Assembly: GCA_023818375.1 (NCBI GenBank)
Contig: JAMWCC010000011.1
Span: 1 to 36,840, forward strand
From: Candidatus Omnitrophota bacterium
GTDB taxonomy: Bacteria; Ratteibacteria; UBA8468; B48-G9; DTJG01
Direction of reading: 5' to 3'
Length of the DNA stretch: 36,840 bases
Part shown: in pieces, positions 9,865-36,840 of the stretch
Position numbering within the stretch: the first letter of the stretch is position 1
Layout: each line of letters begins with the position of its first letter
Translations under genes and position numbers: made by a program
The notes under the pieces: model-generated
What the model saw: only the letters and a program-made list of their open reading frames with translations
Told to the model about the DNA's origin: nothing
Database searches by the model: none

Positions 9865-10043
9865 GGCCTTTTAACCTTGCCAGATTTGAGGCATTGGGTG
9901 CATATAGCTAATTTACTTATCTTGCCCTGATATTCTACAAGAAGCTTTTGAACATTTGGTTTCCACGTTCTTCTGGTCTTCACATTTGAATGACTAACAT
10001 TATTCCCTGTTTTTGGACCTTTTCCACATATTTTGCATTTCAT
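9819..10043 (-). CDS. rpmB: 50S ribosomal protein L28
   Basis: Ribosomal protein bL28, 74 aa. Seen: [19 protein letters not shown] followed by [16 protein letters not shown], the diagnostic L28 pattern, then [14 protein letters not shown]. The CxxC pairs (KICG lacks one, but C-x2-C occurs in CKIC and CTQC) suggest a zinc-binding C-plus version. A strong Shine-Dalgarno (AAGGAGC) precedes the ATG and lies inside the last codons of the upstream polymerase gene, which rpmB overlaps by 44 bases in another frame. The C-terminal 13 residues lie over the end of the opposite-strand recJ. An essential-type ribosomal gene as the last member of a surface-glycan operon is unusual. Confidence 0.93.
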
Positions 10044-11811
10044 CGTTGCTCCTTTCTTGTTGTTTCAGTTTAATATCTCTAAATACTGGAAAGGTTTTTA
10101 TCAAGTATTCTATATATGGGTGATCTGGTTTTATTTGCGCTGCCCTTTCCAGATATTTTTTTGCATCTGCCCACTTTTTTTCCTGATACAGGTTTATTGA
10201 CACAAGTCCAAGCAAAACATCAATATCATACGGATTGAGCCATAAAGCTTTCTCATAATAGTAAATGGCTTTTTTAAAATCACCCACTTGCATGTAGAGT
10301 GTACCTAAGTTCGCATCGGTTTTTGCAAAATGCGGAAAGAGTTCATTGTTTATTTTAAGATAAACTCTTTCGGCATTTTTTAGATCACCGATTTGCCCGT
10401 AGGCAAAAGCCATTTTGTACAAAGCTACTACATGGCTGCTATTTATTTTACACACTTTCTTATAATTTTCAATAGCAGAAAGAAAATTATTTGCCTCCCT
10501 TGCAGCAATTCCATTTTTTAAATACACTTCCGGTACAAGTCTGTAATAAGTTTTCCACACTGATAACGCAAGCATAGAGACAATAATTACAATGGATAGT
10601 ACGTTTTTCATCAATCCAGTTATTTTTATTGTTCTGGAATTTTTATTCCAGCTGAAACAAAGACCGAGTAGAAACCAAAAATACATCGCTGTAGAGGTAT
10701 TGGTTAAATTTGTTGAAAGAATATTATCAATTAACACTGCGAGGATACCAGAAGAAGCAAAAAGAAAAATTTCTTCTGTTTCCTGTGAATGTTTTCTCAA
10801 ACCTTTATAAAATGCCATCACGATAATAAGAAGAAAAAAAACAACTCCAACGATGCCGTTTTCTGACCATATCTCAAGATACTGGCAATGAGGATGATTT
10901 GTTATGGGTGTTGCCTGTGGACGCAAAAAATATTCTCTGAAACGATAGTAGGGATAATAAAATATAAAATTGCCAGTTCCCCATCCAGTAACAGGTTTTT
11001 CTTTTATTAGATTCCACGTACCTTTCCATATGTAATATCTAATGTCTTGTGTAAATTGGGTCTGTATTTTGTTCCACAATAGCAAAGTCAAAACTATTAT
11101 TACGATAAAACCTAGAAATTTCAGATATTTGATTTTATGGTTTCTAAGTAGCAAGAATATTAGAAAAGAAGATGCTACAAGAAGTGCGAAAATAGCTGCT
11201 CTTGATTTTGTTAATGCAAGAGCAGCAAATGTTATTAGAAAATACAAAATGGCGACGGCACCATATTCTTTTTTAAAAAAATAGGCAGTAAGAAATATTG
11301 GCATCAGTAAATGGCCAGCAAAAAAATTCGGATTTCCAAAGGTTGAAATTGGATAATGTGTTTGTGGATATTGAACAAATGCTGTTATTGAAGCAATTAC
11401 CATTGCTGAACCCCATATGAATGCATCCTTTTTATTCCACTCCCATAGCATTCCTGCAATAAATAACAGATAGTACAAGAGACAATTTTCAAGTGCCTGA
11501 GCTGCGCCATATTTTACCGGTGCATAAAAATATCCTATTAACAACCAACCAAAATAAAGCGTTCCTGTAATGAAACCAATAGTATCGATCGAAATATTTT
11601 CCTTTTTTAAAAATAAAATTGCACCAAAAATTAACACAGATATTACACCCAGTATATCTTTGATTATTGTGTAATCATATGCTGGTTTGAAATTTAAAAG
11701 TGGTGTGATGCCAAAAAAGATCACTGAAAAAGAAATTGTGAGTATTTTAATATTTTTGTACCCTGCCTTAATTTTAAAATCTTTGAATTGGTTTGCTCTC
11801 TTTTTGTTCAT
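10000..11811 (-). CDS. O-antigen ligase/polymerase-like membrane protein with TPR tail
   Basis: Polytopic membrane protein of the Wzy/WaaL O-antigen polymerase or ligase superfamily, 603 aa. Seen: about ten hydrophobic segments in the first ~420 residues; a periplasmic stretch with [19 protein letters not shown] and [17 protein letters not shown], matching the conserved W-G-x-G-x-F and H-x2-L/Y-x2-x-x-E-x-G pattern of the Wzy_C domain; then tetratricopeptide repeats (about residues 425-570: [59 protein letters not shown]). It would polymerise or attach lipid-linked glycan on the periplasmic side. Four bases after the sugar-phosphate transferase gene in the same operon. Polymerase and ligase cannot be told apart from sequence. 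Confidence 0.86.
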
Positions 11812-11815
11812 TTGT

Positions 11816-13102
11816 TTATCTTTTTAAAAGTAAACGTAAGGTAAACATTATTATAGCAAGATCGAGCCAAATGCTCCAGTTCTCGGCATAATAAAGGTCA
11901 TATCTAAACCTTTCTTCAGGTTCAGTCTGTCCTCCTTTTAGTCCATGGATCTGTGCCCATCCGGTCATACCGGGTGTAATTTTTACCCTTTCATAAAATC
12001 CAGGTATGGAAAAAAATAGTTTGTCGTCTATTGAAATGGGTCTTGGCCCAACTATACTCATGTCCCCTTTTAAGACATTGAAGAGTTGAGGTATTTCATC
12101 CAGATTGAAACGCCTTAGAAATTTTCCGATTTTGGTTATCCTCGGGTCATTTTCTAATGTATATGGCAGAAAAAAGCTTTCATCTTTTTTCATGGTTCTG
12201 AATTTTAGAATTTTAAATTTTTTATTTCTGTAGCCGACTCTATCTTGCACAAATATCACCGGACCTGGAGAATGAAATTTAATTATTGTAGCAATAATAA
12301 AAATAATTGGCAGTAAAAGGCACAAAAAAAGCATTGCCAGAGTAATATCAGAAAATCTTTTTATCGTCTTATTATGCCACATTTCAAGTGGAAATGTCTG
12401 AGTCGTAATAACCGGAAAGCCATCTATATCCTCAACCCTTCCACCACTTAAGAAGATGTGGGAAATTTTTGGGTATATAAAATAAGGAATTTTGTAGTTA
12501 TCACAAAATCGTTCGATTTTATGAATTTGACTGATGTCATCAAGACAAATAATGACGCAGATTCTATTTATATCTAGTTTTTCAATTGAATTTTTTAATT
12601 CATCTGGGGAAATAATTTTTATGAAATTAGCACCATGAATTGTTAATCTTTTTGAAAGAAGTACAAGGTCATTTTTATTTCCTACTAAAAAAAATCGAAT
12701 TTCTTCTTTTTTTGAAATGAGATTAAAGAAAAGATGGATTAGTGATAGAAAAATGAAACTGGTTAAAATTCCAAGTCCTAACGCTATTCTGGAATAGGAA
12801 AAGCCCCTATAAAAAAATGTCATGGCACTAATTATAAGACAAGCATAGAAGCTACTCTGAATTATCTTACTAAATTCTAAGCATGAATTTACAAATGTCT
12901 GTACTTTGTAAATCTGATTGACACTTAGTAGTATTATCCATACAAGTGCTGCAAATATTGTTATCTGAAGATATGGAGCAAGTGGTGGAACACCTTTTTC
13001 AGGAAATATTGAGAGTGAAAATCTTAAAATATATCCAATCAACATTCCTGATACCACACCCACAAAATCAAAAAAAATCAGCAATTTTTTATTATTTTTC
13101 AT
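11816..13102 (-). CDS. undecaprenyl-phosphate sugar phosphotransferase
   Basis: Polyprenyl glycosylphosphotransferase (WbaP/WcaJ-type), 428 aa, which transfers a sugar-1-phosphate to undecaprenyl phosphate and so starts glycan assembly. Seen: four N-terminal hydrophobic helices, a Rossmann-like middle region (about 135-220), one further membrane helix near 250, and the catalytic bacterial sugar transferase domain with KRFSDITLA, SPGPVIFVQDRVG, KFRTMK, LRRFNLDEIPQLFNVLKGD, MSIVGPRP and TPGMTGWAQIHG. Full length. It overlaps the preceding glycosyltransferase gene by 11 bases. The sugar (galactose, glucose or N-acetyl derivative) cannot be read from sequence. Confidence 0.92.
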   Translation of the reverse strand: MKNNKKLLIFFDFVGVVSGMLIGYILRFSLSIFPEKGVPPLAPYLQITIFAALVWIILLSVNQIYKVQTFVNSCLEFSKIIQSSFYACLIISAMTFFYRGFSYSRIALGLGILTSFIFLSLIHLFFNLISKKEEIRFFLVGNKNDLVLLSKRLTIHGANFIKIISPDELKNSIEKLDINRICVIICLDDISQIHKIERFCDNYKIPYFIYPKISHIFLSGGRVEDIDGFPVITTQTFPLEMWHNKTIKRFSDITLAMLFLCLLLPIIFIIATIIKFHSPGPVIFVQDRVGYRNKKFKILKFRTMKKDESFFLPYTLENDPRITKIGKFLRRFNLDEIPQLFNVLKGDMSIVGPRPISIDDKLFFSIPGFYERVKITPGMTGWAQIHGLKGGQTEPEERFRYDLYYAENWSIWLDLAIIMFTLRLLLKR

Positions 13103-14192
13103 TTTTGAGTTTGCAAAATAAATCTTCGTATTTTTTCCCTACTTCTTCCCAGTTGTATAGCTTTCTAACCCTTTCACGTGCTCTTTCCCCCAAACTTGAA
13201 AAAAAGGCGGGTTTATTCAAAATTTCTTTTATTGCACTTGATAATGAACCAATTTTTTTTGTGTAGTAGATACCGCAATCACCAAGGACCTCTCTGTTAA
13301 ATGGTACATCTAAAGCGAGAATTATTGAACCACAACCCATGGCAGATAACAATGCGGGATTGGTTCCACCGACCTCATTACCATGTATGTAGGCTATTGA
13401 ATTTGCCTGTAATTCCATATATGCATTTTTGTCATACACAGTACCGATAAACCTAACCTTTTCCGAAGCCATTGACTTTAATTTTTTTACATAGTTTGAA
13501 CCGCTGTGTATATCCCCTGCAATTACAAGAGGAATCTCAGTGTCGATCTGTTGATACTCTTGTACCATTAAATCTTGATTATTCTCAGGTTCAAGTCTGC
13601 TTCCTGTAAAAAAGTAATTTTTTGGTTTCAATCCGAAGCCAGATAGTATCTCGGGATTCTTTGAATAAAATATCTCGCCTCCATAGGGTATAAAAATAGA
13701 ACTTTTATTAAAGCGGGATCTATAATATCGTCCAATCTCAATGGAATCAACTATTATTGAATCTGCAATTAGAGTTGAAAAAGATGAAGCGAACTTAAAA
13801 TATATCTTACCCATAAAGCCCCATTTTTTTCGTTTCCATTCAAGCCCATCAACATTGATAGCAACCTTTTTTCCAAAAAACTTTGCAAATAATGCTATGG
13901 GGCTATTTGCAGCGTTAAACATAAGTATGACGTCCGGACTCCAACTTAATGTAAATAAAACACTGAAAAAAGTATGGGAGAAAGTATCGCTAATCTTGCC
14001 CCTAATGGAGATAGGGTATATGAGTTTTATTCTGGGATGGATATTTGGTTTGTCAGGATATAAATATCTTCTGCAACTTACAAGGACCTTATGCCCTTTA
14101 TTTGCAAGATATTCTGCAATTTTTTCAGCACACGTTTCAAAACCACCATATCTGGCTGGTATTCCTCTTGTTCCAATAATTGCAATCTTCAT
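13092..14192 (-). CDS. GT4 glycosyltransferase with DUF1972-type N-terminus
   Basis: Retaining GT-B glycosyltransferase, 366 aa from the ATG at 14192. Seen: KIAIIGTRGIPARYGGFET at the very N-terminus, the signature of the rhamnosyltransferase-like DUF1972 family; AINVDGLEWKRKKWG; FTGSRLEPENNQDLMV; and a C-terminal donor-binding half with SIAYIHGNEVGGTNPALLSAMGC, where the conserved glutamate and following helix hold the nucleotide sugar. The longer frame to 14252 adds residues not seen in the family, so the internal ATG is chosen. Eight bases after the preceding glycosyltransferase and overlapping the sugar-phosphate transferase by 11. Probably adds the second or a later sugar; linkage unknown. 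Confidence 0.87.
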   Translation of the reverse strand: MKIAIIGTRGIPARYGGFETCAEKIAEYLANKGHKVLVSCRRYLYPDKPNIHPRIKLIYPISIRGKISDTFSHTFFSVLFTLSWSPDVILMFNAANSPIALFAKFFGKKVAINVDGLEWKRKKWGFMGKIYFKFASSFSTLIADSIIVDSIEIGRYYRSRFNKSSIFIPYGGEIFYSKNPEILSGFGLKPKNYFFTGSRLEPENNQDLMVQEYQQIDTEIPLVIAGDIHSGSNYVKKLKSMASEKVRFIGTVYDKNAYMELQANSIAYIHGNEVGGTNPALLSAMGCGSIILALDVPFNREVLGDCGIYYTKKIGSLSSAIKEILNKPAFFSSLGERARERVRKLYNWEEVGKKYEDLFCKLKNEK

Positions 14193-14200
14193 CTTGATAA

Positions 14201-15328
14201 TTATATCAAAGAAAGAACATTTTTGTACACTTGGATGGTTTTCATTGCACACTCGTGCCAGGTAAATTTTTTTACCAACATGAGTCCTTTTTCCCTCAAT
14301 GTATTTTGAAGATTAGTATCATGACAAATCTTTATGATATTTGAGGCTATTTCTTCATAGTTCTCAGGATTAACATGAATGGCTGTGTCCCCGGTGACCT
14401 CTGGAAGCGAAGAAGTATTAGACGTAATAACAACACATCCGCAAGCCATTGCTTCCAGTGGCGGGAAACCGAATCCTTCATAAAAAGAAATGTAGATAAA
14501 AACTTTTGCTCCGGAGTAAAGGGAGACAAGGTCTTTGTCGTCGATATATCCTGTTAGTATAATTCTGCTGTTGAATCTTGAGTTTCTTATTTTTGAAAAA
14601 ATTTCATCATAAAGCCAAAGTTTTTTTCCGACTATAACCAGATTACAGGGAAAATTTTCGTTTTTTTCAAGTACCTTGGTAAAGGATTCAATTACCCCTT
14701 TAAGATTTTTCCTTGGCTGAAGATTTGATACTGTAAGAATATAGGGTTGACGGATTCCATACTTGGCAAGGGTTTCTTTAATCTCCTTCTGGCCTGCAGG
14801 CTTAAATTTATTAGAAATTCCATTATAAATTACACATATTTTGTCCCGCTTAACATTATAAATGTTTAAAATCTCCTTTTTTGAAAACTCAGATACAGTA
14901 ATAATCTTTTTTGCTTTCTTAATTGATAAAGGCATCATGAGGTTCATTTTTAATCTTTCATAGATTGGAAAAAACTCGGGATGTGTAAAATAAGAGACAT
15001 CATGGAGTGTTATTACTGATGGAATGCCTATGTGTGGCGGAAGATGATATTGGGTATGTAAAAGGTCAAGCTTTGATTTCTTTGCATTTTTTGGTAAATC
15101 AAAAAACAATCTTTTTATTGGGTTGACTGATACTCTCTCAATTTCAAATGATTTGTTCCCCTTTAAAAAATCAGGAATTTTTGCTTTGTGATTGAAAAAG
15201 ATCGTAAAACTAAGTCCACACGTTTCGATTTCAGAAAGTCCCTTCAAAAGTCCCTCAATGTATCTTTCGTTTCCTCCTTGTTTCAGACCAATAGCGTGGG
15301 CATCAATGCCTATTTTTTTTTGTTTCAT
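14201..15328 (-). CDS. GT4-family glycosyltransferase
   Basis: GT-B fold glycosyltransferase, 375 aa. Seen: [20 protein letters not shown] at the N-terminus; [20 protein letters not shown] and [10 protein letters not shown] in the acceptor half; [19 protein letters not shown] at the start of the donor half; and the GT4 EX7E-type segment [18 protein letters not shown] followed by [11 protein letters not shown]. These features are those of mannosyltransferase-like enzymes in O-antigen clusters. The start overlaps the end of the upstream glycosyltransferase by 26 bases and the stop is eight bases from the next gene, so it is co-transcribed. No membrane segments: it should act on undecaprenyl-linked glycan at the cytoplasmic face. 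Confidence 0.88.
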
Positions 15329-16628
15329 TTAAAATTTTTGCGTAAAGTTGTAGGTACTTTGATGCTGTGTTTTTGATATCGAAATTTTTTTTCACATGCA
15401 TGGAAGATGCCTCTGACATGCTTTTTAATAAAATTTCGTTCGTTATTAGTTTTTTTATTGTCTGTGCCATGATGGAAGTATCGTTACCAGGTATTAAAAA
15501 CCCGGTTTTCCCATTTATAACCTGTTCCTTTATTCCACCTGCTGAAAAGGCAACAACAGGCGTACCGCAGGCCATCGCTTCTGTTATTGCCAGGCCCCAT
15601 GTTTCATATTCCGCAGTGCTTATGTAGATATCAGCTGCGCGATAGAATTCTGCTACTATAACATCGTCATTTATAAAAGGTATAAATCTTATTTCTACAT
15701 TTCCATGGAATTCAGTTTTTCCTTTTTCACCAAGGCAAAGAATTACAACGTTATCTCCAAGATGCATATCCTTCAATATAAGAGCAACCTTTCTTAAGTT
15801 TTTGAAATTTTTGTATCTATTGGTTTTCAAATCTCTTCCAGATGAAAGTAAAATAACTGCATTTTCTTGAAGGTTTAATTTTCTCCTTGAAGCCTTTTTG
15901 TTTCCTGGCTTAAAAACAGAAAGGTTGACTCCGTTATTAATTACTTCCAAACCTCTTACAAATTTCTCCACAGGCGATTTTCTTACAATTTCCATTGCCC
16001 ACTGAGACGGTGTGCAGACGTATGGTCTGATTTTTTTGATAACTTGAATCTTTTCTTGTAAATTTTTCCGAATGCCGTATCTTACAATAAAGGATGGAAA
16101 CCATGATTCCGGACAATCTTCACATCCAGTTTTCCATTTTTCACAATTACCTGGTTGTATGCATTTGCCGGTTAATAACCACATATCGTGAAGTGTGATT
16201 AGCACTGGAAAGCACGTGTAGGCGTAAAAAAGAAGATATGGATTGATAAATCTGTTGTGAAGATTATGGAAATGTAGTATATCGGGTTTGAAGTGTAACC
16301 TATCAGCTATTATTGCGTCAAAATTTACATAATTCCATGTTTCACGTCCAGTAAATATCTTCCTAAAGGTGCCGGGTTTTTCAAATTGCCTGAGTAATTT
16401 TTTTAAATAATTTTCCCTTGAATATCTCTGATTTATTTTGTGAAAAAATTCATAAAAGGCAGAAATTCTTGGTTGAGGGAACTCCATTACGAACTGATAG
16501 TTTGATATTTTACGATTTACAAAAAGAAAGGCTTTATGTCCCACTTCATTGTAAATAGAACAGAGGGAACAGACGATTTTTTCTGCCCCACCATGAATGT
16601 CGTATGGATTTATCAAAAGAATATTCAT
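15303..16628 (-). CDS. GT4-family glycosyltransferase
   Basis: GT-B glycosyltransferase, 441 aa, first gene of the minus-strand polysaccharide operon. Seen: N-terminal NILLINPYDIHGGAEKIV (nucleotide-fold glycine loop), LHFHNLHNRFINPYLL, LITLHDMWLLTGKC followed by a cysteine-rich loop CIQPGNCEKWKTGCEDCPE, which is typical of one GT4 subgroup, and in the donor half ISTAEYETWGLAITEAMACG and VVAFSAGGIKE. The cysteine loop could bind metal. A candidate promoter lies 35-65 bases upstream. The acceptor and sugar are not deducible. Confidence 0.89.
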   Translation of the reverse strand: MNILLINPYDIHGGAEKIVCSLCSIYNEVGHKAFLFVNRKISNYQFVMEFPQPRISAFYEFFHKINQRYSRENYLKKLLRQFEKPGTFRKIFTGRETWNYVNFDAIIADRLHFKPDILHFHNLHNRFINPYLLFYAYTCFPVLITLHDMWLLTGKCIQPGNCEKWKTGCEDCPESWFPSFIVRYGIRKNLQEKIQVIKKIRPYVCTPSQWAMEIVRKSPVEKFVRGLEVINNGVNLSVFKPGNKKASRRKLNLQENAVILLSSGRDLKTNRYKNFKNLRKVALILKDMHLGDNVVILCLGEKGKTEFHGNVEIRFIPFINDDVIVAEFYRAADIYISTAEYETWGLAITEAMACGTPVVAFSAGGIKEQVINGKTGFLIPGNDTSIMAQTIKKLITNEILLKSMSEASSMHVKKNFDIKNTASKYLQLYAKILNETKKNRH

Positions 16629-16802: not shown

Positions 16803-16874
16803 GGGGGTATAGCTCAATGGGAGAGCGTCCGCCTTGCACGCGGAAGGTTGTCGGTTCGAATCCGATTACCTCCA
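16803..16874 (+). tRNA. tRNA-Ala(TGC)
   Basis: Full cloverleaf: acceptor GGGGGTA pairs with TACCTCC (one G-T pair), D arm GCTC/GAGC, anticodon stem TCCGC/GCGGA around loop CTTGCAC with anticodon TGC, and T arm closing around TTCGAAT. Discriminator A. The 3' CCA is not encoded (ACA follows the stem). Reads GCN alanine codons. The next coding sequence starts 25 bases downstream with no room for an independent promoter of normal layout. Confidence 0.97.
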
Positions 16875-23500: not shown

Positions 23501-23591
23501 CGGAGGGGGTGGGATTCGAACCCACGGTACCGCCTTTCGACGATACAACGGATTAGCAATCCGCCGCACTAGACCTCTATGCGACCCCTCC
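23501..23591 (-). tRNA. tRNA-Ser(GCT)
   Basis: Class II tRNA of 91 bases on the minus strand: acceptor GGAGGGG pairs with CCCCTCC, discriminator G as in serine tRNAs, anticodon loop TTGCTAA with anticodon GCT inside a CGGAT/ATCCG stem, a long variable arm (ATCGTC/GGCGGT region) and T arm GTGGG-TTCGAAT-CCCAC. Reads AGC/AGU. The 3' CCA is not encoded. Confidence 0.96.
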
Positions 23592-30905: not shown

Positions 30906-31368
30906 AAAGATTGTTTTTTTTTATGTTGGATTTTCAATTGCTTTTATTCTGGATAGAGCAAGCAAACAAATAATTTTGTCAGTAATTCCTGAGAATTCGC
31001 ATATTGAAATTTTTAGATTTTTTCGGATTACAAATATTAGAAACTCCGGAATATGTTTTGGCCTTTTTGATAATCCAATTTACCTACCGATATTTATCTT
31101 TACATCCCTCATTGCAATAGGGTTTATCATCTCATACGTTTATAAAAAAAGATCAGAACTACCATTACTTTCACTTTTTAGTTTTGGTATTATTGCCGGT
31201 GGTGTGCTTGGTAATTTAATTGATAGAATCATATTTTATGGGGTTATTGATTTTATAGACTTTCGGATTTGGCCTGTTTTTAATCTTGCGGACTCTTTTA
31301 TTGTCCTTGGGGTTTTAACCCTTGTTATGATTTACTGGAGACAAAAAGATGCATCCTGTATGTTTTAA
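30841..31368 (+). CDS. lspA: lipoprotein signal peptidase (signal peptidase II)
   Basis: Aspartyl membrane protease that cleaves the signal peptide of lipidated prolipoproteins. Seen: first helix with FILDRASKQIIL, then NIRNSGICFGLFDNP (the N-x-G-x-x-F/A-G motif), two helices, AGGVLGNLIDRI with the first catalytic aspartate, DFIDFRIWPVFNLADSFI with the second, and a final helix. 175 aa from the first in-frame ATG (30841), which has no Shine-Dalgarno and gives a 23-residue basic leader overlapping the DksA-like gene. An ATT at 30910 has AAGGA seven bases upstream and would give a normal short N-terminus (152 aa). The start is therefore uncertain; the function is not. Confidence 0.93.
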   Translation: MPNSVLNARGFKKRKKVDNKDKKIVFFYVGFSIAFILDRASKQIILSVIPENSHIEIFRFFRITNIRNSGICFGLFDNPIYLPIFIFTSLIAIGFIISYVYKKRSELPLLSLFSFGIIAGGVLGNLIDRIIFYGVIDFIDFRIWPVFNLADSFIVLGVLTLVMIYWRQKDASCMF

Positions 31369-32086
31369 GATCGGCAATTTTGTTGTCTACTGGTACGGAG
31401 TTTTTGTTGCTATGGGAGTTATTTTAACTGCTTTTTTGTTTCAACGCGAGGCGAGAAAGAACGGTTATTCTGATGAGGTCTCGGGTAAAATTATATTTTA
31501 TACTGTGCTGGCAGGTATCATTGGTGCCAGAATTGCTCATGTCTTTTCGTATTCCCATTACTATATTCGCAATCCCTTGGAAATTATAATGATTCGCAAC
31601 GGAGGACTTGCAATCCAGGGCGGGATATTATTCGGGATGATTGGATTGATATTGGCTGCAAGAAAATTTGGCACAGATGTTATGAAAGTTTTAGATATGG
31701 TTGCAAAATACCTACCCCTTGGGCAGGCAATTGGAAGAATTGGTTGTTTTTTCCATGGTTGTTGTTATGGAAGACCTTCTGAAAAATGGTTTGCAATCAA
31801 ATTTCCATTTTTGGAAAAGTCGGTTTACCCTACGCAGATCTATTACTTTATTGGGGATATTATCATCTTTTCCATTCTTTATTTTTTTGCCAAAGATAAG
31901 CAAAATGATGGAGAAATTACTGGTTGGTACTTTATTTTTATTGGCGCCTTCAGATACTGGATTGACCAATACAGGGGTGATTTGATACCCGGAACATTGG
32001 GGTTCTATCCTACCCAAATTTACGCAATATTATTTTTTCTTATAGGCGCACTTTGGATTTTTAGAATATCCCTGGTTAAAAAATAA
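31349..32086 (+). CDS. lgt: prolipoprotein diacylglyceryl transferase
   Basis: Inner-membrane enzyme, 245 aa, that moves diacylglycerol from phosphatidylglycerol to the lipobox cysteine, the step before LspA. Seen: N-terminal FKIGNFVVYWYGVFVAMGV, a helix with GIIGARIAHVF, NGGLAIQGGILFG, the Lgt signature GQAIGRIGCFFHGCCYGRPS, YPTQIYYFIGD, and a C-terminal RYWIDQYRGD. About seven hydrophobic helices. GGAG precedes the ATG by seven bases. It overlaps lspA by 20 bases, pairing two consecutive steps of lipoprotein maturation. It ends tail-to-tail with the opposite-strand transporter gene, overlapping it by 11 bases. Confidence 0.95.
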   Translation: MHPVCFKIGNFVVYWYGVFVAMGVILTAFLFQREARKNGYSDEVSGKIIFYTVLAGIIGARIAHVFSYSHYYIRNPLEIIMIRNGGLAIQGGILFGMIGLILAARKFGTDVMKVLDMVAKYLPLGQAIGRIGCFFHGCCYGRPSEKWFAIKFPFLEKSVYPTQIYYFIGDIIIFSILYFFAKDKQNDGEITGWYFIFIGAFRYWIDQYRGDLIPGTLGFYPTQIYAILFFLIGALWIFRISLVKK

Positions 32087-34055
32087 TCTGATATATTGTC
32101 TTTGCAATCAAGGCAATGGCTATTGAAACCATTCCTATTAGTCCAACTCCGCAGCTGTATCCTGCAAGGATTATTGGTGTATACCTTCTCCATGTCTCTG
32201 CACCAAATTTCTTGGCAAAATAAAATCTTCCCAACATTGCACCAAAGAAAAGAGGGATTGTTGAATGGGGCCATGCAGCAACCCCACCAATGAGTCCATA
32301 GAAGAAGGCAACAGGCATCTTGAGAAGGGTAAGAATCACATTCAGAACTATTGCGCCAGCAGCGAAAGATATAAAATAGAAAGGTTTAATTGCTTTGATC
32401 ATATAGCTGGTTCCTGATTCTCCAAGTGTACTGCTAATCCATAGGCTTTGTGTTATTGCGTTAAGTGGCCACATTTTTTGAACATAAGGATACGTCGCTG
32501 ATGGAATGGGCGATAGATGCCATATAATTGACCAGAAAAGAAAACTGCAAAAAAGCATTATTACTAGGGCCGTAAATTCTGCTTTATAATAGCTTGTAAA
32601 TTTCGTTCTTGTCAGTTCAAGTTGTTTGAATGCCTGAGCCATTCCGCCGACGTCAAAATAGGGTATTGGAGAAAACCATATTGCTGCTCCTTTGTATCCG
32701 CTGAAAATGAAGCTTGCTTCTCGTACAAGGGGAAATGAAACTCCAGTGTGAACACCAGTAATTCCAAACATTCTTGCAGATGTGTAACTCAGAAATGGTG
32801 TCAGAATGAATCCAAAAAGAATGAAAATAAAAACAGGAAATTCAGGGACAAGAATATGGGTTAAGATTATAAAGCAAATTGTCGCTAATATCCACAATCC
32901 CAGGGCAACAGAGATTGGATAATCCCCCCTACCCTTTGGCAATTCTTCTTTTTTAGTTGTTTGTACCGTTTTCCTTCTTGCGGCAATCATTTTCCAAATC
33001 CCAAGCAGCCCTACACATATTCCACCACCGATAATCGCATTTATCCAAAAATCCATATTAACAGAGATTGAGGTTGGTACCACACTCATTCCTGGCTGCC
33101 AATTTTTAATAATTTTCGCTTGATACAAAATGGGATTGGCAACACATTGAGCTAGTATGGATGAAGTTAAAGATCCAACAACAACCCAGAATGGCAGGAC
33201 AAATCCGGTAAGTATTGTTCCGAGGTCTGTTAAAAACCCAAACATTGCTGCTGGTGCTTTCGCGCCTATCTGTGCTGTAAAATCAACCCATGGTATTGGT
33301 ATTAGTTGAAACGGTTTTGACATCAACAATCCAGTAACGGTCGGTATCACAACATAGAATGCTCCGAAAATTATGCCAATCATGGCGCTTATGCTAAAAA
33401 TTCTCCATCTCCAGCTTTCCGTTTTTCCAGAAACCTCAGCAAGTGCAGTTGCGCCTTCTGAAGCAACCGGTGCCATTGGAAATGCAAGTTTTTCTCTGTC
33501 ACTGGTGATTCTGAACATAACATAGCCCAGCGTAAATTGTGTAATCCTTATTAAGAAAGCAAAGACCACAATAATAATAATGGGTTTTATCCAGTCATGA
33601 TGGAAGAAAGTTCTTTTTAAGATTGCTTCTGAATTCGCAGGTGGGACTACCCATGAGGGTATTTTATCGGTTATGCCAAATGAATGCGCATAGTGTGATT
33701 GAACAAAATACTGTCTCCATATCAACTCACCAAAGGCGCCACCGTGTATTGTAAGGCCAGCGGTTCCCAGTATTGTACCACCACCAGCAACAGCGCCAGC
33801 GAGAATGTAAAGTATGTAAACTTCTTGTTTTTTAAGTGGAACAAATGAGCGTTTGGCAATTTCAACAAGAAGTATTACAGTTACCCATTGGGCAGCCCCG
33901 CCCAATCCGCTGCCTGTGATTAATCCTAAATAGATTGCACCTGGAAGCATTATAAAACCAATGAAGATTGCTGCTATAACAGCCTTAATTCCAAATCCCT
34001 CCTGGAATTCTTCCAAAACCTCAGGTTTTAAATCGGGTATGTCTTTTTCTTTCAT
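32076..34055 (-). CDS. OPT-superfamily-like polytopic transporter
   Basis: Large integral membrane protein, 659 aa, from the ATG at 34055 (AAAGGGG upstream). Seen: about 14-16 hydrophobic segments, an N-terminal cytoplasmic acidic stretch, glycine-rich helices (LGLITGSGLGGAAQWVTVIL, AGAVAGGGTILGTAGLT), a SDREKLAFPMAPVASEGATA loop and the RMFGITGVHTGVSFPLVREA stretch. The P-M-A-P/S-x-G-A-T loop and glycine helices resemble oligopeptide transporter (OPT) superfamily and DUF6784/6785-type proteins. The cargo is not known. It starts 10 bases after the FtsX-like gene, so the two are co-transcribed and may act in one envelope process. Confidence 0.72.
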   Translation of the reverse strand: MKEKDIPDLKPEVLEEFQEGFGIKAVIAAIFIGFIMLPGAIYLGLITGSGLGGAAQWVTVILLVEIAKRSFVPLKKQEVYILYILAGAVAGGGTILGTAGLTIHGGAFGELIWRQYFVQSHYAHSFGITDKIPSWVVPPANSEAILKRTFFHHDWIKPIIIIVVFAFLIRITQFTLGYVMFRITSDREKLAFPMAPVASEGATALAEVSGKTESWRWRIFSISAMIGIIFGAFYVVIPTVTGLLMSKPFQLIPIPWVDFTAQIGAKAPAAMFGFLTDLGTILTGFVLPFWVVVGSLTSSILAQCVANPILYQAKIIKNWQPGMSVVPTSISVNMDFWINAIIGGGICVGLLGIWKMIAARRKTVQTTKKEELPKGRGDYPISVALGLWILATICFIILTHILVPEFPVFIFILFGFILTPFLSYTSARMFGITGVHTGVSFPLVREASFIFSGYKGAAIWFSPIPYFDVGGMAQAFKQLELTRTKFTSYYKAEFTALVIMLFCSFLFWSIIWHLSPIPSATYPYVQKMWPLNAITQSLWISSTLGESGTSYMIKAIKPFYFISFAAGAIVLNVILTLLKMPVAFFYGLIGGVAAWPHSTIPLFFGAMLGRFYFAKKFGAETWRRYTPIILAGYSCGVGLIGMVSIAIALIAKTIYQIIF

Positions 34056-34065
34056 TTTTTCCCCT

Positions 34066-36840
34066 TTATGTTGTTGATAAGCCCAGGATTTTTTTACCCT
34101 GCTTTTCAAAATCCCTTTTTATCTCAATGCTTACAGTTCTCCAGATTAAGAACTGTTTTCGGATTCCATCTAAAAATCTTCTGTTCAGTCTTTTCCAGTC
34201 AGAGGATTCTCCGCTTTCTCTTGTTATTTCAAGGTTTATTGTATAAAAATTGTATTGCCCTAGAGGAGACATTATAAATTTTACACTCTGTGTTACCCCA
34301 AGATCAAAAGGAGCAAGGGTCACATTAGTTTCTATAATGTAGGTATGTTTTCCGGTTGGACTTTTTTCCACACTAAATTTTGTATCTTTAGTGTAAAAGT
34401 TTCCTAGAGAAACATCCTGATAGGAATTTAGGTACTCTGACAAAAACGTAGAAAGTCCTATGACCTCTATTTCACTTACTGTAAAAGGAAATTCAAATTT
34501 CCATAAGTCTCCTTTTGGTTCTGGAAGTATCCATCTACGCGTAACATCAGGAACTGCCATCTGGGATGCTTTTCTCGCTGGATAAAGCGTTGACAGCAAT
34601 ACTGTGATGATTATGATAATCGTGGCAAAAACAGCTGAAAGTGATGAATAGTTAAGTATTAGTCCTTTTAAAAGACCAGTAACTATGAGAAATTTTGTAA
34701 CCATCTGACCTAGAAGATACCCCCCTACTGCCCCTAAAACTGCAAAAACACCAGCTTCAGCAAGATACAAAGATGCAACATGTACAGGAGCAAGTCCAAC
34801 AGCGCTATATGTACCAATTTCTCTTAATCTTTCATATACGGAACCAAGCATTGTATTGAGCACTATCATTGCTGCGATAAGAATTGGGATAACCAAATTG
34901 CTTAAACCAGAAAGTGATGTAAGTCCAATGCTGCTGTAAACAGTTACTTTATCCTGATATCCGACAAAAAGTATAGCAGCAAGTTTTGAAATAAACGATT
35001 CAACTATCCCTTTGACATCCACACCTGGATAAAATCTTACTGCTATGGATTGGAGGGTACCATCAAGCTCTTTGATTGTGCTTATTGGAACTATGGGAAT
35101 GTTTGCGGGTTCAATATGTATGAAGCTTTCAATTTTTTCCACTGAAGTTAAAACCTGTGCCTGTCGTTCCATTTTTATCTTGCCTAATTCCTTTGATGGA
35201 AGGGATGCAAAGTTAACAGGTGTTAGAATTTCATCATCAAGGTCTTTTAGTGTATTGAATTTTTCCGAATCAAAAATTCCTTTAACAAGGAATGTTTTTC
35301 CGTATATTATAACTTTCGCGGCTCCGACATCTGTTTCTTTTATACCAAGTTCCTTTGCAATTTTGTCGGGTAATATTATGACATCTGATTCACCTTGCTG
35401 AAGCCATGAGCCACTTTTCAGACACTTATCAATTTCAGTTACTTCCTTTTCTTCAGGAGTGAGGCCTAATAGACCAGATGCATAACAACTTTTTTCTCCA
35501 GCCTTAATTTCCACTGCAGTTTTATTTTCAAGCTCTTCATTTATGAACCAGTATCTCTGTGCTATAACACCATTTCCCTGAAAGTCATCAACTACGTATT
35601 TATATGCAATTTCTTGTAATGGACTCCATGCCCTATCTCTAAGTAATACTCCTTCATAGGATGGTTTGTTTGGTCTTATAATCTGATTAAACTTCATAAA
35701 GGACTTTATTGAGGTAAAAGATAGGACAGTGAATGTTAGTAATACCAGCGTTATTCCTGTTAGCATTGTTCTAATTTTCCTTCTTTTCATGTTCGCCACA
35801 CCAAGAGAAAATGCTGTTCCAGTAGCAGCGATTCTTCCAACATCAGTCTGATAAACCCTGGCACCTTCCCTTTTCAATCTTTGCATCTGTTCTTCAAACT
35901 TTGAGGCAACAATCGATATTACGACGATTGAGAGTGCAAGTACAATGAATGCAAGCAATATCACTTCAGGAGCATTCGTCAACTTAAATGCGGGGTGAAC
36001 CAGGCGCATTATCAGATAAATTAAAATAAAGATTGCTGCCATTCCTGCAATTCTTTTTTCAAGTTTTGCAAATCCAAAAAAGAGTCTTTCTCCAAAATAT
36101 GCAAATGGCATCAACAAAAGGAAATAAAAAATGATACCTTTTATTACATCATTTGCAGTACTTTTAACATCAGGATATGCACGAGATTCTATCGCCTGAG
36201 ACTGCCTTGCAAAACTAAGAAACATTTCCCAGTTTCGTTCTTTTTTTGCATCTTCTGCTTTTTTTAACAATTGTTTTGATTGCTGTTGTAAGGCATCAAG
36301 GCGTTCGTTTCTTATGTTATATCTTTTGAAATTTGCCACTCTGTATGCATCAAGTATTATCATATCTTTGGCTGCCTGATATTGTAGAGATTCAATCGTT
36401 TCTGTTGTATCGACTGGAAATCCTAGTCCTTCGGCTTTGTTTTTGTCCTGAGTTGTTGGTTCTGAATTGAGTAACAAAAGTCTTATACCCAGAGGACCTG
36501 ACTGACCAATTATTTTTACATAGGTTTTTGGTTTTGCAAACACCACTCCAACGGGTTCTCTGTATGAAATCCAGCTCCAGGAAGAAAGGTCAGATGTTTC
36601 AAGGAAGTATGAATAGGCTTCTGGTAAACTGTTTGAAAGATCAAAGACATCAAGCTTATTAATGGCTGTTAGATAAAATGGATCAATAAGCCCTATCAAA
36701 TTGATAGGCTTGCAATCAAACAACACTATCAACCACTTTTTATTCAGTACGTCAAGACCAACTCTGTTGGGATATTGTTCATTTCCATGAACACCAAAAT
36801 CTGGTGCCATCACGATTTCGCCACTGGCTTTGTCAAATTT
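34066..36840 (-). CDS. giant FtsX/MacB-like permease, 5' end off window
   Basis: At least 924 codons; the frame is open to the window edge so the N-terminus is missing. Order seen: a soluble region (visible residues 1 to ~235) ending in a coiled-coil-like LDALQQQSKQLLKKAEDAKK; three hydrophobic helices (~235-320); a basic cytoplasmic loop FEEQMQRLKREGARVYQTD; the FtsX/MacB core with VANMKRRKIRTMLTGITLVL, a periplasmic MacB-type domain (~385-640) and three helices containing VYERLREIGTYSAVGLAPVH, the typical FtsX signature; then an extra C-terminal soluble domain (~780-920). FtsX-type permeases work with a cytoplasmic ATPase as mechanotransmitters or lipoprotein/peptide exporters. No ATPase gene is in view; it may lie past the right edge. 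Confidence 0.8.
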   Translation of the reverse strand, partial: KFDKASGEIVMAPDFGVHGNEQYPNRVGLDVLNKKWLIVLFDCKPINLIGLIDPFYLTAINKLDVFDLSNSLPEAYSYFLETSDLSSWSWISYREPVGVVFAKPKTYVKIIGQSGPLGIRLLLLNSEPTTQDKNKAEGLGFPVDTTETIESLQYQAAKDMIILDAYRVANFKRYNIRNERLDALQQQSKQLLKKAEDAKKERNWEMFLSFARQSQAIESRAYPDVKSTANDVIKGIIFYFLLLMPFAYFGERLFFGFAKLEKRIAGMAAIFILIYLIMRLVHPAFKLTNAPEVILLAFIVLALSIVVISIVASKFEEQMQRLKREGARVYQTDVGRIAATGTAFSLGVANMKRRKIRTMLTGITLVLLTFTVLSFTSIKSFMKFNQIIRPNKPSYEGVLLRDRAWSPLQEIAYKYVVDDFQGNGVIAQRYWFINEELENKTAVEIKAGEKSCYASGLLGLTPEEKEVTEIDKCLKSGSWLQQGESDVIILPDKIAKELGIKETDVGAAKVIIYGKTFLVKGIFDSEKFNTLKDLDDEILTPVNFASLPSKELGKIKMERQAQVLTSVEKIESFIHIEPANIPIVPISTIKELDGTLQSIAVRFYPGVDVKGIVESFISKLAAILFVGYQDKVTVYSSIGLTSLSGLSNLVIPILIAAMIVLNTMLGSVYERLREIGTYSAVGLAPVHVASLYLAEAGVFAVLGAVGGYLLGQMVTKFLIVTGLLKGLILNYSSLSAVFATIIIIITVLLSTLYPARKASQMAVPDVTRRWILPEPKGDLWKFEFPFTVSEIEVIGLSTFLSEYLNSYQDVSLGNFYTKDTKFSVEKSPTGKHTYIIETNVTLAPFDLGVTQSVKFIMSPLGQYNFYTINLEITRESGESSDWKRLNRRFLDGIRKQFLIWRTVSIEIKRDFEKQGKKILGLSTT

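Follow-up and report, generated by a model that had tools for sequence, protein, structure and literature searches.

A conserved gene pair encoding an OPT-like transporter and a giant FtsX-type permease with a predicted pseudopeptidase ectodomain

The window analysed here, a 36840-base stretch of DNA from a Candidatus Omnitrophota bacterium, spans an entire contig (G000:C66). At its right-hand end, on the minus strand, a gene for an OPT-family transporter lies directly downstream of a gene for a giant FtsX-type permease, which is therefore open at the contig end. The features of this pair are as follows.

32076-34055, minus strand: OPT-family transporter gene, 659 amino acids, with its ATG at 34055 and its stop at 32076.
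34060-34065, minus strand: Shine-Dalgarno-like AGGGGA within the 10 bases that separate the transporter and permease genes, read from the junction sequence.
34066-36840, minus strand: last 924 residues only of the giant FtsX permease, running off the contig end; about 1463 amino acids at full length in relatives.
34558-34890, minus strand: FtsX C-terminal domain (Pfam PF02687), residues 651-761 of the permease fragment, E 4.5e-13.

The permease reading frame ends at 34066, leaving 10 bases to the transporter's ATG at 34055, exactly the spacing given in an earlier note on this DNA. The range which that note assigned to the transporter, 32076-34120, is right at its start and overshoots at its end, since the gene ends at 34055. 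The note also considered further genes to the right possible. Because the window is the whole contig and the permease is cut there, this region was read from the loci of relatives, where the permease N-terminus and a gene for a TPR protein are indeed found; no complete unrelated operon interrupts the pair on that side. At its other end the transporter gene converges with a 245-amino-acid plus-strand open reading frame (ORF) at 31349-32086, Lgt-like by eye, and the two share 11 bases at their 3' ends (32076-32086).

Is this pair a peculiarity of one genome? A search of 41 genomes (35 members of the window's class and 6 outsiders) found the OPT-like transporter in 30 of the 35 class members and in none of the outsiders. 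Every one of the 20 genomes of the same phylum that are at least 85% complete has exactly one OPT-like gene, some of these genomes being just 1.1-1.3 Mb; this single copy suggests a core rather than an accessory envelope function. Adding the window to the 30 relatives' loci gives 31 class loci. In 28 of them the giant permease is directly upstream of the transporter on the same strand, and in the remaining three (L053, L055, L056) the transporter itself is cut by a contig edge. Raw gaps between the two genes run from -8 to +164 bases, a range that excludes the window, whose ORF call starts at a spurious TTG. Upstream of the permease, 20 of the 21 class loci that contain its start encode a TPR protein of about 175 amino acids that by eye looks like a lipoprotein or a membrane-anchored protein, the only one without it (L059) being a contig-edge locus. 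Beyond the TPR gene there is often one that by eye encodes glycyl-tRNA synthetase alpha, so that the unit in this class is TPR-permease-OPT.

The pair extends well beyond the class. We took the best-scoring 80 of 575 confirmed relatives as a set of named-genome loci, weaker relatives lying outside it; their records are titled Omnitrophota, Latescibacterota, Armatimonadota, Desantisbacteria, Gemmatimonadetes, Kiritimatiellota, Desulfobacteraceae and others. Counts come from a six-frame profile scan, as ORF calling hid some OPT and ATPase genes under longer antisense ORFs in G+C-rich loci. The giant permease is upstream of the transporter in 64 of the 80 loci, a contig edge intervenes in six, and ten have none. 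Twenty-one of the 80 (L061-L078, L085, L093, L134) are from same-class genomes that overlap the 31-locus set; the 59 non-overlapping loci comprise 45 pairs, four contig-edge cases and ten loci without the permease. Thirteen of the 64 pairs have ORFs more than 400 bases apart, and four of these (L084, L087, L089, L137) have a DUF6785 gene at the locus. With 28 of 31 class loci (the other three at contig edges) and 64 of 80 named-genome loci, the OPT-permease pairing is far beyond chance. The pair is thus deeply conserved and operonic, as the earlier note had supposed it might be, and is not confined to the window's genome.

Other genes, assigned to families with Pfam and NCBIfam, recur at the 80 loci, many of which are truncated. 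They encode a LolD-like ATPase (25 loci; 26 were counted, less L115, a protein without the motifs), a half-size FtsX protein (25), an uncharacterised protein of about 300 amino acids (26), a PqqD-like protein (24; PF05402, 2.1e-14), a TPR protein (21), a DUF6785/6784 protein (17) and a protein with an H-X9-DG-like end (9; its NCBIfam match of 0.0083 is below cut-off).

The transporter had been labelled OPT-like from its letters, and the label stands. The window protein itself matches no Pfam model at E<=10, including OPT (PF03169), DUF6785 and DUF6784, and the OPT profile found no match when run against PDB sequences. Among 17 aligned orthologues, however, nine match PF03169, the best at 1e-12; the other members share 54-89% identity with the window protein. 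The predicted model of the transporter (pLDDT 83.3) matches barley YS1 (7wst) in Foldseek at E 3.7e-13. This is also the closest solved structure, superposing with Z 22.7 over 553 residues (root-mean-square deviation [rmsd] 3.9, 14% identity), and the first unrelated row in the comparison has Z 4.0. By its title, 7wst contains a metal chelate. The window transporter is accordingly modelled with an OPT fold across the whole protein. Its description as a DUF6784/6785-type protein did not survive: neither Pfam family matches it, separate operon neighbours match both (3.1e-152 in L092 and 9.4e-163 in L137), the two families occur side by side in operons, and a DUF6785/6784 copy is present at another locus of the window's genome. 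Profile comparison of DUF6785 with the OPT-like family (hhalign E 1.1e-5, 229 columns, probability 82%) suggests that DUF6785 is distantly related to the transporter, but a separate family.

The full-length giant permease is about 1460 amino acids in the window's class and about 1460-1800 overall. We considered whether it contains both FtsX halves in one chain, but Pfam detects one FtsX domain; that its C-terminal domain is a copy of the operon protein of about 300 residues was likewise rejected (hhalign probability 0.3%). MacB_PCD matches the giant permease of L137 weakly (4.9e-5, 24.1 bits, below the cut-off of 27). The region beyond the window was modelled in a relative (L065), whose N-terminal ectodomain (pLDDT 84.1) superposes on 1amp with Z 27.6 (rmsd 2.4, 254 residues) and on 6hc7 with Z 28.3 (372 residues, rmsd 5.6). 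The ectodomain profile matches 2ek8 at E 5.8e-16, and also nicalin and the transferrin receptor, which are non-enzymatic M28 relatives. From the model and these matches, the giant permease is predicted to begin with an ectodomain of the M28-aminopeptidase fold. Pfam Peptidase_M28 scores on giant permeases range from no match (L031) to 2.6e-16 (L058). In one locus (L054:9710-14088) the giant permease is present as two ORFs of 537 and 922 amino acids with a 4-base overlap, placing the pseudopeptidase ectodomain apart from the permease; the split may be natural or an assembly error.

To assess the active site we aligned 48 permeases, namely those above 1400 amino acids in the greedy ORF set (a cut that removes shorter, truncated sequences), and set the positions by alignment to M28 enzymes, with residue roles (Zn ligands, catalytic Glu) that we take from general M28 enzymology. 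The position of the catalytic Glu (residue 285 of L065) is His in 48 of 48. The first Zn-ligand His position is Tyr in 34, Phe in 13 and Gln in one; the next Zn-ligand Glu position is Phe in 43, Tyr in three, Cys in one and Asp in one; and the last His position is Asp in 45, Asn in two and Gly in one. Two Asp positions of the M28 site are largely retained (48 of 48 and 45 of 48). As judged from this alignment, the ectodomain is a probable conserved pseudopeptidase, the metal-binding and catalytic residues being lost in all 48. It is of note that 2anp, a solved enzyme with a Glu-to-His change (E151H by its title), is among the best structural matches of the ectodomain.

Where are the partner genes in the window's genome? 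The half-FtsX and ATPase genes are a pair on contig C108 and the DUF6785/6784 gene is on C114, so that with the OPT-permease pair on C66 the system is divided over three loci. The ATPase on C108 shares 75% identity with the copy in the L095 operon, best outsider matches reaching 50%; it scores as LolD-like, with further scores against peptide exporters, DarD among them. The linkage of this LolD/MacB-type ATPase to the permease comes from gene order at the loci of other genomes. The half-FtsX subunit has 217 amino acids and scores 57.9 bits against the LolC/E curated cut-off of 362, while a different LolCE-like protein of the same genome scores 305 bits. Since this genome has separate LolCE/LolD-like and MacB-like genes elsewhere, the OPT-permease system is a further one, and we rejected the idea that it is the LolCDE of the phylum. 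A PqqD-like gene still lies ahead of half-FtsX in L183 and L184, two members of the class. In five loci of one family (L173, L175, L177, L178, L185) the half-FtsX/ATPase pair comes after a run of dipeptide/oligopeptide ABC importer-like genes (by eye). The DUF6785/6784 gene of the window's genome lies (L187:3833-9135) beside hldE-, kdsB- and pyrG-like genes (by eye), a hint of a diderm that makes lipopolysaccharide.

The same 41 genomes show how these genes are distributed. The giant permease is present in 31 of the 35 class members, half-FtsX (at E<=1e-40) in 29 and DUF6785 in 31; all three are absent from the six outsiders, and DUF6785 also from 14 control genomes.

Elsewhere in the window, a polysaccharide cluster occupies 10000-16628 on the minus strand (an O-antigen ligase with TPRs, a sugar transferase and three glycosyltransferases), and there are two tRNA genes (16803-16874, plus; 23501-23591, minus).

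We tentatively propose that the OPT transporter and the giant permease are the membrane core of a conserved composite envelope transport system, type VII ATP-binding cassette (ABC) plus OPT, with a pseudopeptidase receptor; this is our preferred reading, though one held with less than even confidence. It builds on the conserved pairing, on domain content, on the lost catalytic residues, on the OPT fold and on the co-distribution with the ATPase, the half-permease and DUF6785, from which we infer a physical complex, a type of substrate or ligand, a direction and a coupling. The giant permease would make up half of a type VII ABC complex of the LolCDE/MacB/FtsEX kind. Its partners would be the half-size FtsX subunit and the LolD-like ATPase, whose genes occupy a second locus in the window's genome and belong to the operon itself in other phyla. 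The periplasmic M28-fold pseudopeptidase would most likely be the receptor, binding a peptide-like or chelate-like ligand without cleaving it; ATP-driven movement via the FtsX helices could load, gate or release the ligand; and the OPT carrier, with its DUF6785 relative in many genomes, would move it across the inner membrane. The term 'export system' used in the earlier note is not established by these data, direction and substrate being inferred only. A bolder reading would make this a new composite transporter class, in which a type VII ABC motor is mechanically coupled to an OPT carrier (in many lineages plus its DUF6785 relative), with a pseudopeptidase receptor and often a PqqD-like peptide-recognition protein, as core envelope equipment of several little-known phyla; that much we consider doubtful.

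Several observations weigh against the composite system. Upstream of the OPT gene, ten of the 80 loci show no giant permease in the sequence examined. The ATPase pair of the window's class is not linked to the OPT gene and lies at a locus of its own by housekeeping genes. PqqD is found in only six of 35 class members (and two of six outsiders), is missing from the window's genome and is thus dispensable. Distances between OPT proteins correlate with those between giant permeases (r=0.87, 63 loci) and between half-FtsX proteins (r=0.86, 25 loci) but only at r=0.50 with those between ATPases (26 loci, including the false L115), and all of these correlations, r=0.87 included, also reflect common species history. 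Likewise, Fisher values for co-distribution were calculated as if related genomes were independent of one another.

Two rivals stand out: a transducer of the FtsEX kind accompanied by a co-regulated importer, and a single operon serving two independent functions. The first would have the ABC part move the periplasmic domain to control an envelope enzyme, the OPT protein being a separate importer of peptides or wall fragments. FtsX/LolD-type parts are present, a TPR protein gene is immediately upstream of the permease, and type VII systems activate periplasmic enzymes, according to a report on such systems (PMC12646458). We nevertheless consider a transducer rather unlikely, in that the OPT gene beside the permease is conserved as tightly as any subunit and a second OPT-like family, DUF6785, is present at 17 of the 80 loci. 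The second rival holds that the genes are merely co-regulated, OPT importing peptides or metal chelates and the permease belonging to an unrelated efflux or lipid-extraction pump. OPT carriers elsewhere function without an ABC partner, and the unlinked ATPase pair of the window's class fits this explanation. Against it are the constant gene order, with spacing that is tight for the most part, in the majority of loci across many phyla, and the retention of a single copy in all 20 well-covered genomes of the phylum even at 1.1-1.3 Mb; on balance it is unlikely.

An improbable alternative is peptide export and maturation, where a PqqD-like protein would bind a precursor, the ABC part export it, and OPT or DUF6785 re-import the product, for example a peptide metallophore. 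The PqqD-family gene at 24 of the 80 loci, the metal chelate in 7wst and the ATPase's scores against exporters such as DarD are consistent with this, but PqqD is absent from the window's genome and most of its class, and no precursor peptide or radical SAM gene turned up, though no systematic search was made. Finally, an active M28 aminopeptidase fused to the permease and supplying amino acids or dipeptides to OPT, for which the fold and the Pfam matches in several relatives might speak, is very improbable and already disfavoured by the aligned active sites, with His for the catalytic Glu in 48 of 48, aromatic residues for the Zn-ligand His and Glu in 47 and 46 of 48, and Asp for the last His in 45 of 48.

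The mostly non-subscription literature that we searched yielded no description of an OPT-FtsX partnership (also with PqqD or M28), in agreement with the earlier note's statement that such partners are not known; nor did it yield a paper on DUF6785/6784, or on OPT with EspB in Myxococcus or nicalin-related terms. The OPT-permease system is thus apparently undescribed; we take it for a variant of the type VII ABC systems, and there is a real chance that it is more than that. Only a handful of type VII ABC systems have been characterised, and the class is defined by its partners. A link to OPT through a dead-peptidase permease would widen the range of functions in this superfamily, and the proposed system supplies a concrete hypothesis for DUF6785/6784 and for bacterial OPT proteins.

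How does the proposed system compare with known ones? The window transporter shares its predicted whole-length fold with the OPT family and barley YS1 (7wst/7wsr) but differs in having no Pfam match of its own, in its 14% identity and in its operon with an ABC permease. DUF6785/DUF6784 (PF20581/PF20580) is a distantly related membrane protein and frequent operon neighbour, yet a separate family. With M28 peptidases and their relatives (transferrin receptor, nicalin) the ectodomain shares the predicted M28 fold, here fused to an FtsX permease. Type VII systems derive their function from partner proteins, and in YbbAP-TesA a hydrolase is likewise joined to the permease (PMC12646458). LolCDE, MacAB, FtsEX and YbbAP-TesA share with the present system an FtsX-type permease (PF02687), an ATPase of the LolD/MacB type and a large periplasmic part; what sets the present system apart is a permease of about 1460-1800 amino acids with a predicted N-terminal pseudopeptidase, a half-size second subunit and a secondary transporter gene as constant neighbour.

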